A stretch of DNA of 39,837 nucleotides from the IMG/VR virus record IMGVR_UViG_3300036900_000181, positions 1-39,837 of that record. One strand, 5' to 3'. The DNA is from a virus. The translations under genes were made by a program, and so were the position numbers. Below are positions 18,851 through 38,304 of the stretch, in pieces. Within the stretch, counting starts at the first letter, position 1. Each line of letters begins with the position of its first letter. The notes under the pieces are model-generated. The model was not told the DNA's origin. It ran no database searches and saw only the letters and a program-made list of their open reading frames with translations.

Positions 18851-18893
18851 ATGGCTAGGGATACTCCCGAAAAGGCTTAAAACGCCCTGCCAT
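18851..18893 (+). ncRNA. Three-way-junction leader RNA, copy 1
   Basis: P1 is ATGGC (18851-18855) with GCCAT (18889-18893). Inside are P2 GGG-ATACT-CCC (18858-18868), the linker GAAAA (18869-18873), and P3 GGC-TTAAAAC-GCC (18874-18886). The same arrangement, with different paired bases, occurs at 37907-37955. A TATACT box lies at 18844-18849 with no clear -35. If it is used, the RNA would start at about the 5' edge of P1. It is the 5' leader of the gene at 18919. Possible roles are mRNA protection, ligand sensing or binding a phage protein. Confidence 0.6.
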
Positions 18894-18918
18894 TTACTTA
18901 ACAACAAGGAATTCACTT

Positions 18919-19170
18919 ATGCAAAAGCAACTCACACTATTCAAGTCAGTCATTAACGGAATAGAAAATTACTTCCATTTTGACGCAAATTGCCCGGTAG
19001 ATATCGCTAAAGACGCTCTTTTAGAATGCCTTAAGTGGATTGGCCAGATAGAAGATGCCGCTAAAGCTGCGCAAGAAATGCAAGCAAAAGCAGAGGCAGA
19101 AGCAAATCAAGCTGAAGCGCCTGCAGAGGCTCCAGCAGAAACACCCTCACAGGAAACCCCTCATGAGTAA
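18919..19170 (+). CDS. Hypothetical protein with Ala/Glu-rich tail, 83 aa
   Basis: The N-terminal 50 residues are a compact helical segment (F-x-A-N-C-P-V-D-I-A-K-D-A-L-L-E-C-L-K-W-I-G), and the C-terminal 30 residues are a flexible tail of E-A-P-A-E repeats. I recall similar small proteins beside fibre genes in other phages but cannot give a function. The ATG follows AAGGAATTCACTT. The gene overlaps the next by 8 bases. A three-way-junction RNA leader precedes it. Confidence 0.65.
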   Translation: MQKQLTLFKSVINGIENYFHFDANCPVDIAKDALLECLKWIGQIEDAAKAAQEMQAKAEAEANQAEAPAEAPAETPSQETPHE

Positions 19171-35760: not shown

Positions 35761-37038
35761 ATGACTGATCCACTATCTCCAAAACAAGTACAATATGTAA
35801 AAAACGCTAATGCAAAGTGGAACATGGCCCATGGAAGTGTTCGATGTGGTAAAACCGTTGGTACCGTTTTTCGTTTCCTTGCTGACTGTATGGCTTGTCC
35901 AGACTCGAAGATATACATTGTTGGTCATACTTTCGATACTGCTTATCGTAATGTTGTTCGTCTTATCATGGAAAGCGAAGAGCTTAGTATGTTCCGCCCC
36001 TTCTGCGCATGGACTGGAAAGAAGTTATATTTCCGAGATAAAGTCATCACTGTTCTAGGCGCAAAAGACGAAGGTGCAATCGGTAATTTCCAAGGTGACA
36101 CACACTCTCTGACCTATTGCGATGAAATTACCTTGTACCCTGAAAGTATAATCGATATGATTGATACGCGTTTAAGCTGCGCTCACAGCAAGGCTCATGC
36201 AACCATGAACCCTGCACAACCTACTCACAAGGTTAAACAGTGGATTGATAGAGCTGACGCAGGAGATAAGAACTATTATTCACTACACTTTACGCTGGAT
36301 GACAATCCATATGTACCCGCAGATTATAAACAGCGTATACGTGATAGCCTTAGTGGTGTTTTTTATAAGCGTAATTACCTTGGTTTATGGTGCCTTGCCG
36401 AAGGGGCTATTTTCGACTTCTTTGATCGATCGATACATGTGGTGCGTAAGCCTCCTGCTGCCGCTGAGTATTACATTGCTGCTATTGACTACGGGGCTAG
36501 TAACCCTTTTGCATGTCTTCTGATAGGCGTAAGTACAGGGCGCTACACACAAACAGGTAAAAAGCTTTGGGTAGAAAAAGAATACTATTGGGACCCTAAA
36601 GTAACGCAGAGAGGCAAAACGAATGCTGAATTTGCTAAAGACGTTGTTGAGTTCCTTAGCGATTATAACGTTAACGCTTTGTATATTGATCCTAGTGCTG
36701 CCGCTTTTAAGTTGGAGATGCGCCGTGCACATATGCCAACGGTTGACGCAAATAATGAGGTTCTAGATGGCATTCAGATCATGACGAGTGAGATGCAGAA
36801 AGGTAATCTTGTTGTGATGGAATGCTGTAAGAATTTGATCAGAGAGCTTGAGACTTATGTATGGGACAAGAAGGCGAGTGAGAAGGGTGATGATGAGCCT
36901 GTTAAGAAGTCAGATCACGCCATCGACGCCTGTAGGTACGCAGTCGCGACGCATAAAGTTACTATCTACGACCCATATAAGGACAAACAGAGAGCCGATG
37001 AGTGGAGATCGAATAGATATGACCCATATAGAAGATGA
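35761..37038 (+). CDS. terL: Terminase large subunit, 425 aa
   Basis: The packaging ATPase-nuclease. Walker A at 25-32 (G-S-V-R-C-G-K-T), Walker B at 117-122 (L-T-Y-C-D-E), then the RNase-H-like nuclease domain with D243 in A-I-D-Y-G-A-S-N-P, D310 in I-D-P-S-A-A and D385/D389 in D-H-A-I-D-A-C-R-Y. Length and motif order fit the PBSX-type large terminase. It drives headful-type packaging into the procapsid through the portal encoded downstream. It is separated from the small subunit by a divergent minus-strand cassette, which is unusual. Confidence 0.93.
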   Translation: MTDPLSPKQVQYVKNANAKWNMAHGSVRCGKTVGTVFRFLADCMACPDSKIYIVGHTFDTAYRNVVRLIMESEELSMFRPFCAWTGKKLYFRDKVITVLGAKDEGAIGNFQGDTHSLTYCDEITLYPESIIDMIDTRLSCAHSKAHATMNPAQPTHKVKQWIDRADAGDKNYYSLHFTLDDNPYVPADYKQRIRDSLSGVFYKRNYLGLWCLAEGAIFDFFDRSIHVVRKPPAAAEYYIAAIDYGASNPFACLLIGVSTGRYTQTGKKLWVEKEYYWDPKVTQRGKTNAEFAKDVVEFLSDYNVNALYIDPSAAAFKLEMRRAHMPTVDANNEVLDGIQIMTSEMQKGNLVVMECCKNLIRELETYVWDKKASEKGDDEPVKKSDHAIDACRYAVATHKVTIYDPYKDKQRADEWRSNRYDPYRR

Positions 37039-37067
37039 TTGACATAAAATGCAAGCCTTGATAGTAT
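37039..37067 (+). promoter_or_regulatory. Consensus promoter for a leaderless HNH mRNA
   Basis: Perfect TTGACA (37039-37044) begins at the base after the terL stop, then 17 bases and TAGTAT (37062-37067, 4 of 6). The ATG lies 8 bases after the -10, at the expected start site. No Shine-Dalgarno site fits between. Confidence 0.65.
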
Positions 37068-37074
37068 CTGATAT

Positions 37075-37656
37075 ATGGATAAACATCAAACTCATTATGG
37101 TAAAACATTTTACCTAGACAAGAAGACAGGATATTGGATATCTACGGCATGCCCAAAGATAAGAGCTCATCGTTGGGTGTGGTTGCAAAATCACTCTGAG
37201 ATACCTTCTGGATGTCACATACACCATAAAAATGGTAATAAGTCAGATAATTCAATCGAAAATCTTGAATTAATGGCTCAATCCGATCATTTGCGTTTGC
37301 ATATGACAGAGGAAAAAAAGAAAGCGTCAAGTCTTCGAATGGATGGGATACGACACTTAACAAAAGAATGGCATGCCAGTGAAGAAGGTAAAGCTTGGCA
37401 TAGATTACATGCATTTAAAAACTCATTTGGTAAGTGGGAGTCGCAAACATTCGAATGTAAAGTTTGTAAAAAATCCTATGAATCTACAAAGAAACATAAT
37501 TCCAAGTTTTGCACAAACGCATGTAAATCAGTCTATAGAAGGGCCAGTGGTTTGGATGACATAGAAAGGGAATGCAGGAAATGTAGTCAGAAATTTATCT
37601 GCAATAAATATGCAAAAACACTCTATTGTAGCAGATCATGCGCCCACAAAACATAG
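37075..37656 (+). CDS. HNH homing endonuclease-like protein, 193 aa
   Basis: Residues about 30-75 match an HNH_3 domain: R-A-H-R-W-V-W-L-Q-N-H, G-C-H-I-H-H-K-N-G-N-K-S-D-N-S-I-E-N-L-E. The catalytic histidine is H50 or H51, and N63 completes the motif. The C-terminal half carries two treble-clef-type cysteine clusters (F-E-C-K-V-C, F-C-T-N-A-C; E-C-R-K-C, Y-C-S-R-S-C). This fits a free-standing homing endonuclease inserted between terL and portal, a usual site. Leaderless transcript predicted. Its end overlaps no other gene; the next start is 11 bases on. Confidence 0.85.
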   Translation: MDKHQTHYGKTFYLDKKTGYWISTACPKIRAHRWVWLQNHSEIPSGCHIHHKNGNKSDNSIENLELMAQSDHLRLHMTEEKKKASSLRMDGIRHLTKEWHASEEGKAWHRLHAFKNSFGKWESQTFECKVCKKSYESTKKHNSKFCTNACKSVYRRASGLDDIERECRKCSQKFICNKYAKTLYCSRSCAHKT

Positions 37657-37666
37657 AGGCAAAATC

Positions 37667-37858
37667 ATGCCACCCATAGCCGCCAATAGAGATGTACACA
37701 AAGAATTTAGCCAAGAATATCTAGAGAAATGGTGCAAAGAAAACGACTTACCCGTCAATTTCTTTGATCTACCAGTACAAGAAAGGCGAGATGCGATAAT
37801 GGATAGCCATAGGAGATTATGGCCTATTGATCCGGATGATTATTTGAGAATAAAATAA
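37667..37858 (+). CDS. Small acidic protein, 63 aa
   Basis: Start at 37667 has GAGG 7 bases upstream; an upstream in-frame ATG at 37610 lies inside the HNH gene and is not favoured. The product is acidic with a W-C-K-E-N-D-L-P-V-N-F-F-D-L-P-V-Q-E-R-R-D-A-I core and a W-P-I-D-P-D-D-Y end. Unknown function; probably a terminase/portal accessory by position. Confidence 0.65.
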   Translation: MPPIAANRDVHKEFSQEYLEKWCKENDLPVNFFDLPVQERRDAIMDSHRRLWPIDPDDYLRIK

Positions 37859-37868
37859 AGAAAATGCC

Positions 37869-37897
37869 TTGACATAATATCCAAAACAGTCTTTAAT
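37869..37897 (+). promoter_or_regulatory. Strong promoter before a three-way-junction leader
   Basis: Perfect TTGACA (37869-37874), 17 bases, TTTAAT (37892-37897, 5 of 6). Predicted start 37904, three bases before P1 of the leader RNA. It drives the zinc-finger gene and probably the portal gene. Confidence 0.8.
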
Positions 37898-37906
37898 TAA
37901 ACATTA

Positions 37907-37955
37907 ACTCACCTAGGATCGCTTCCGAAAACGGTTTTCTGGACCGCAGGTGAGT
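37907..37955 (+). ncRNA. Three-way-junction leader RNA, copy 2
   Basis: P1 is ACTCACCT (37907-37914) with AGGTGAGT (37948-37955). Inside lie a single A, P2 GGA-TCGCT-TCC (37916-37926), the linker GAAAA (37927-37931), P3 CGGT-TTTCTGG-ACCG (37932-37946) and a single C. Copy 1 at 18851 has the same junction (A; 3-bp P2 with 5-nt loop ending CT; GAAAA; P3 with 7-nt loop; C) but different paired bases. It starts at the predicted 5' end of the mRNA. Confidence 0.7.
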
Positions 37956-37986
37956 CTTTTCAATCCAGATTAACTACAGGGGTTAT

Positions 37987-38295
37987 ATGGGAAAACCAGT
38001 AAAAAAAATATGCGAACATTGTGATAAAGAATATTGGGGACAAAAAGAATCTAGATTTTGTTCTCTTAACTGCGTAGGTCTTCATGCATCTTGGTTGTGT
38101 AAATCAGGAAAAGAAGTATGTAAAACACAAGAGGAGAGAGAAAAAGACAGGATTAAAAGAATCAATGCTAACTTTGTGAATAGGGAAGTAAGAAAGCCAC
38201 GAGACCCATTAGCTAACGCAAAATTAGATTCATCTCATCTATATAAGAAAAAAGAACCCGCACTCATGAAAAGATTCAACGCATGCAGGGGATAA
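37987..38295 (+). CDS. Zinc-finger basic protein, 102 aa
   Basis: N-terminal treble-clef-like zinc finger: I-C-E-H-C-D-K-E-Y-W-G, then S-R-F-C-S-L-N-C-V-G-L-H (residues about 8-32). The remaining 65 residues are basic (K-R-I-N-A-N-F-V-N-R-E-V-R-K-P-R-D-P). It is related in style to the C-terminal fingers of the HNH gene and may be a remnant or partner of such proteins. ATG follows AGGGG. It is the first gene of the transcript that begins with the leader RNA. Confidence 0.65.
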   Translation: MGKPVKKICEHCDKEYWGQKESRFCSLNCVGLHASWLCKSGKEVCKTQEEREKDRIKRINANFVNREVRKPRDPLANAKLDSSHLYKKKEPALMKRFNACRG

Positions 38296-38304
38296 TCTGT
38301 AAAG

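Follow-up and report, generated by a model that had tools for sequence, protein, structure and literature searches.

Two segments of one viral genome, 37907-37955 and 18851-18893, resemble each other as small structured RNAs placed ahead of genes, and the question is what this RNA is and what it does there. The window (the whole stretch of DNA analysed, 39,837 nt, IMG/VR record IMGVR_UViG_3300036900_000181) was searched with Rfam and own covariance models, and the element was followed into other phages, prophages and isolate genomes. The answer given here is that int-alpA, the Rfam family to which the element is assigned below, would be a portable 5' leader acting in cis, a translational switch for the gene behind it that works through alternative pseudoknots (probability about 0.75, from comparative sequence analysis). 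Coordinates of the features are collected in Table 1.

Table 1. Features of the two window copies and of the genes around them.
Feature	Position	Strand	Basis or remark
Copy 1, int-alpA-type three-way junction (P1, P2, GAAAA, P3)	37907-37955	+	Rfam, own model, covariation
Copy 1 P1	37907-37914/37948-37955		A37915 next
Copy 1 P2, GGA/TCC	37916-37918/37924-37926		Loop TCGCT
Copy 1 GAAAA	37927-37931		
Copy 1 P3, CGGT/ACCG	37932-37935/37943-37946		7-nt loop; then C37947
Copy 1 P3 loop, TTTCTGG plus A	37936-37943	+	Predicted to pair with S4 or S5; sequence, family-wide permutation tests
Copy 1 S4, TCCAGA	37964-37969	+	6 Watson-Crick pairs with TCTGGA 37938-37943, duplex -7.2 kcal/mol
Copy 1 S5, CAGGGG, overlaps Shine-Dalgarno	37977-37982	+	3 Watson-Crick and 3 G-U pairs with TTTCTG 37936-37941
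Copy 1 promoter, TTGACA 37869-37874, 17 nt, TTTAAT 37892-37897	37869-37897	+	Read from sequence
Gene behind copy 1, 102 aa, CxxC...C zinc-ribbon-like N-terminus	37987-38295	+	
HNH endonuclease gene	37075-37656	+	PF13392 1.1e-15, phrog_15471 3.7e-33
Copy 2, three-way junction	18851-18893	+	RF02996, own model
Copy 2 P1	18851-18855/18889-18893		
Copy 2 P2, GGG/CCC			Loop ATACT
Copy 2 GAAAA	18869-18873		
Copy 2 P3, GGC/GCC			Loop TTAAAAC
Copy 2 possible S4, TTAA	18898-18901	+	4 A-U pairs with loop TTAA 18877-18880
Gene behind copy 2, 83-aa small protein	18919-19170	+	

The three-way-junction layout, which the sequence-only reading had described for the two segments, is present in both as described, and the two are copies of a single RNA that have diverged. 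Exact matches to the core that they share, CTAGGNNNNCTNCCGAAAA, lie at 18855-18873 and 37913-37931 and nowhere else in the window, and its presence in both copies is far beyond chance. The minimum free energy fold of copy 1 was the three-way junction (-17.8 kcal/mol, z -2.7). That of copy 2 kept P1 and did not form P2 and P3 (z -1.4), so that its structure was assigned by homology; the earlier claim of one fold for both segments thus stands by energy for copy 1 and by homology only for copy 2.

Focused Rfam searches matched copy 1 to RF02996 (int-alpA) at 27.6 bits (E 2.8e-4) and copy 2 at 22.4 bits (E 0.0063). Both scores lie under the gathering score of the family (35.8 bits, the curators' annotation threshold), and the claim is therefore limited to homology: the window RNAs are read as homologous to int-alpA, in what appears to be a divergent, sub-threshold form. 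The Rfam scan of the whole window listed neither copy, int-alpA being seen in the focused scans only, and these returned no competing family above its own cut-off at either copy. Both copies aligned over their full length to model positions 1-71 with the conserved CUA, GAAAA and C(U)G present, and in copy 1 CA replaces CU before P1'. An own covariance model, made from 60 other phage sequences with the window copies left out, had two hits in the window and no more, copy 1 at 42.9 bits and copy 2 at 32.0 bits. The core letters of this model were chosen to match the window, so that independent weight lies with Rfam's own model and with covariation. The cut-off was passed in the same portal-defined phage group by L498 (49.5 bits), L440 (two copies, 43.0 and 37.5 bits) and L433 (39.1 bits), which links the window copies with the int-alpA family. 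The opinion that this was not a known phage RNA was therefore revised. One published mention records int-alpA in some E. coli genomes and says no more of it. To our knowledge, no known riboswitch fits the element by sequence, and a hammerhead-like ribozyme was rejected because the letters of its catalytic core are absent.

In IMG/VR the core pattern was found at a minimum of 120 places, and 111 of the 122 occurrences listed (the window's two included) carry flanking P1 and P3; representatives of these matches scored 40-52 bits against RF02996. In a second, larger set, P1 and P3 were parsed in 85% of core-pattern places versus 10% for a P2-breaking pattern, and none of the P2-breaking places so parsed also paired P2. 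In an alignment of 99 members, 98% of cells pair. The covariation score was 0.687; shuffles gave 0.146 (sd 0.011), and sliding the partner strand gave no value above 0.075. Changes on both sides of a pair occurred in three of the four P1 pairs and in all four P3 pairs, and covariation in P1 and P3 is overwhelming. The sequence-only reading had staked its case for a selected RNA structure on further homologues and covarying helices; the element recurs in many phages and the score bears the structure out. For P2 this holds in part, as one base pair covaries between the two copies and the first two G-C pairs are invariant in IMG/VR-type members, where the third pair covaries. A pattern with the two invariant G of P2 replaced had 120 places listed, none with P1, P3 and P2 all paired, so these G-C pairs are taken as fixed in the IMG/VR-type subtype. 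Many Rfam-found members from Gammaproteobacteria have a variable P2 of 4 bp, compared with 3 bp in the window copies.

A chance likeness of two hairpin-rich intergenic stretches in one phage would accommodate the fold of copy 2, which is not the junction, and the fact that the core pattern, with three mismatches allowed, was no rarer than in shuffles. Set against it are the matches to both models, hundreds of relatives, the covariation, and a control pattern of 14 fixed bases (from a first reading of the Rfam consensus), which gave 27 IMG/VR places, none of them junction-like. Chance resemblance is refuted for the family by covariation and for the window copies by the Rfam and own-model scores, and its remaining probability is negligible.

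The element keeps a fixed distance to the gene behind it. From the core to the next start codon the median was 80 nt (interquartile range 76-83, 150 non-redundant loci), and from GAAAA to the start it was 60-89 nt in 26 Rfam-found loci, which were chosen independently of the core pattern. In the window, CTA is followed by the start after 74 nt (copy 1) and 64 nt (copy 2). A -10 box was present 13-24 nt upstream of CTA in 33% of loci (6-8% in control windows), and exact TATAAT at the -10 position in 9% (0-0.7% in the control). The last base of the box lay a median of 7 nt upstream of P1, so the transcript is expected to start at P1. No clear enrichment of -35 boxes was seen upstream of P1 across the family, and the family promoter claim is therefore confined to the -10 box; such an enrichment without a clear -35 box points to promoters that depend on an activator or are of the extended -10 type. 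For copy 1 the promoter has a predicted start at about 37904-37905, which agrees with the earlier statement that the element begins within a few bases of it (37907); a promoter scan that accepted only -10 boxes with A as their second base did not list this promoter.

Each P3 loop was tested for complementarity to the sequence ahead of its start codon, with loops exchanged among loci serving as the control. Stretches of five or more complementary bases peaked at two sites, S4 at -24 (45% of loci versus 5% swapped, z 24) and S5 at -11, over the Shine-Dalgarno sequence (45% versus 8% swapped, z 17). Both sites had at least four Watson-Crick pairs in 106 of 150 loci, versus 31 when permuted (sd 4.4, max 41). 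In 98% of the loci with both sites the identical loop bases serve S4 and S5, and the two pseudoknots are therefore mutually exclusive. The Rfam-found set gave the same pair of sites, both with at least five pairs, in 12 of 26 loci (2.5 expected, max 8 in 1000 permutations). Mean duplex energies were -6.1 kcal/mol for S4 and -5.1 kcal/mol for S5, calculated for the duplex alone. In about 30% of loci one of the two pairings is missing at the level of four or more pairs, and S4 and S5 might be direct repeats maintained for some other purpose, which would account for part of the S5 complementarity. The Rfam consensus structure of int-alpA contains no pseudoknot, and the sequence-only reading had missed these pairings of the P3 loop.

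Rfam gives the type of int-alpA as 'Gene; sRNA', that is, a free small RNA, which would act in trans with the P3 loop as a seed for distant targets. The exposed loop differs among loci, as a seed might, and the loci that lack one cis pairing fit that description too. A start codon at the fixed spacing given above and a loop complementary to its own downstream sites, one of them over the Shine-Dalgarno sequence, argue against the free sRNA type and not against homology. The terminator scan of the window found no terminator-like site at or right after the element, which also speaks against a free small RNA; the trans role is judged very improbable. An intrinsic terminator, as a separate candidate for the element, was rejected since none was called at it.

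In the window the loop pairings are uneven. The S5 duplex of copy 1 (-2.6 kcal/mol) is weaker than its S4 duplex, so that copy 1 would sit mostly open. Copy 2 has a possible S4 that gave no stable duplex when its energy was computed, and no convincing S5 was found at its Shine-Dalgarno sequence (AAGG 18906-18909); it has lost most of its loop pairing and is probably degenerate. In the relatives L440 and L433, S4 and S5 are both well formed.

For the cis leader the following course is proposed. Transcription would begin at or near P1, and the P1-P2-P3 junction with its conserved unpaired bases would present the P3 loop. Pairing of the loop with S4, just 3' of P1, would leave the Shine-Dalgarno sequence free and translation on, and pairing with S5 would cover it and turn translation off; from the positions of the two sites, S5 would thus repress and S4 relieve. 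The conserved core would be where a ligand, a protein or a folding step sets the balance. Candidates are a ligand or protein bound at the invariant core, a fixed set point, or the order of emergence in transcription, where S4 would appear before S5 and allow a self-limiting burst.

Alternatively, the element could be a constitutive structural leader, serving to stabilise the mRNA, to provide ribosome standby or to hold translation at a fixed low level, with pseudoknots that set a constant level and no switching. It begins at the predicted transcript start, its topology resembles that of exonuclease-resistant RNAs, and many unrelated genes stand behind it with no common metabolic signal evident, all of which a constitutive leader would explain. 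Two exclusive pairings at two positions are hard to explain without a choice of states, and the invariant unpaired core exceeds the needs of a plain stable stem; this alternative is considered unlikely. A further extension of the switch is that int-alpA is an orphan phage riboswitch, in which the invariant junction core would bind a small molecule or a host or phage protein reporting the state of infection and shift the loop between S5 and S4, so that cargo in many phage lineages would be translated only at the right moment. Family-wide, sequence statistics place the element in the 5' UTR with alternative pairings that would expose or hide the Shine-Dalgarno sequence, as in a translational riboswitch, and in the window S5 is weak in copy 1 and none is found in copy 2. 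The riboswitch is put forward tentatively, at somewhat less than even odds.

The genes behind the leader are mostly of an accessory kind, replication proteins among them. Among 124 proteins directly behind leaders, the largest recognised groups were HNH endonucleases with associated NUMOD motifs, GIY-YIG endonucleases and DUF1376/primosomal proteins. Domains of the KilA-N, Rha, resolvase, integrase and methyltransferase kinds occurred once or twice each, and many proteins, small ones included, carried no recognised domain. Named phages and E. coli prophages have the same kinds of gene behind the leader. A switch of this type suits mobile genes that are costly when over-expressed, such as homing endonucleases. 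The data point to control of the translation of the single downstream, usually accessory, gene, and the earlier suggestions of late leaders that coordinate late genes or protect 5' ends were dropped. One int-alpA type was found in 50 of 5426 complete E. coli genomes, and in a sample of 185 genomes from the class to which Yersinia belongs, 22 had an int-alpA match. Further copies were found in isolates of Bacillus, Lederbergia, Neobacillus, Streptomyces and Rhodopirellula. In one prophage (L035, 4306-4546) int-alpA occurs alongside C4 antisense RNA and isrK.

The protein behind copy 1 had no Pfam match above cut-off, and its N-terminus resembles the fingers at the N-terminus of HNH-like proteins that follow the leader in relatives. 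Its gene shares an interval with the HNH endonuclease gene of Table 1, between the terminase (35761-37038) and portal (38356 onward) genes; these two are conserved in relatives and the sequence between them is variable. The variable cargo interval (37040-38300 in the window) ranges among relatives from 126 bp to about 2 kb, and the window's HNH_3 endonuclease gene has a promoter-like site of its own (TTGACA 37039, extended -10). The gene behind copy 1 was found in 0 of 80 relatives. In the relative L434, the homologue of the small gene that comes before (37610-37858 in the window) is followed directly by the sequence ahead of the portal gene; this empty site lacks promoter, leader and gene, about 0.44 kb in all. 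From their absence elsewhere, the window probably gained promoter, leader and gene rather than L434 having lost them.

Homologues of the 83-aa gene behind copy 2 stand in L515 (1690-1900) and L526 (1435-1640) without an int-alpA element, so the leader can also precede a resident gene. In L515 a simple hairpin (CCTTGG-cata-CCAAGG) lies at the Shine-Dalgarno sequence in the element's place. The 43.0-bit copy of L440 (2381-2449) is directly upstream of the portal gene, and the leader can therefore precede an essential structural gene. In L498 (1611-2054) terminase sequence occurs a second time, as a partial copy behind an int-alpA leader, as if a homing-type insertion had carried in the repaired gene end.

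As far as was checked, what is new is the evidence for int-alpA as a cis leader that travels with accessory genes and has two exclusive pseudoknots, one of them over the ribosome binding site. If true, an RNA catalogued as a presumed sRNA in phages and prophages of many phyla would become a cis element of translation with a two-state mechanism, and the controlled expression of relocated homing endonuclease and cargo genes would be explained by promoter, leader and gene arriving together. Should the core sense something, it would be a candidate for a new riboswitch class.

RF02996 and the window copies share the three-way junction and the conserved CUA, GAAAA and CUG junction letters; Rfam describes an sRNA without a pseudoknot, whereas the data here give cis spacing and two alternative pseudoknots. 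In flaviviral xrRNA, a three-way junction has its P3 loop paired with a strand 3' of P1. The likeness of int-alpA to it is by topology alone, and nothing points to int-alpA halting a 5' exonuclease. Translational riboswitches of the preQ1 and SAM-II types combine a conserved core with a loop-to-Shine-Dalgarno pseudoknot that captures the ribosome binding site. A conserved core and a predicted pseudoknot of this kind are found in int-alpA, which differs in the unrelated accessory genes behind it and in the second, upstream complement (S4) that is kept. Hairpins that sequester the ribosome binding site precede the T4 homing endonuclease genes I-TevI, I-TevII, I-TevIII and segB, and mobE of Aeh1 (PMC2988022). 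As proposed for int-alpA, a structured RNA there masks the ribosome binding site of a phage homing endonuclease gene (PMC2988022). In T4 it is a simple hairpin, formed on read-through transcripts only, and the position of a late promoter lets late transcripts escape it (PMC2988022). In int-alpA the promoter is upstream of the conserved junction, and masking would be by a pseudoknot that competes with a second one. The gene's own transcript would not drop part of the inhibitory structure as in T4, since the -10 box lies upstream of P1, and the whole junction is inside the gene's own predicted transcript. The structures that sequester the ribosome binding sites of T4 homing endonuclease genes are the nearest working precedent (PMC2988022).
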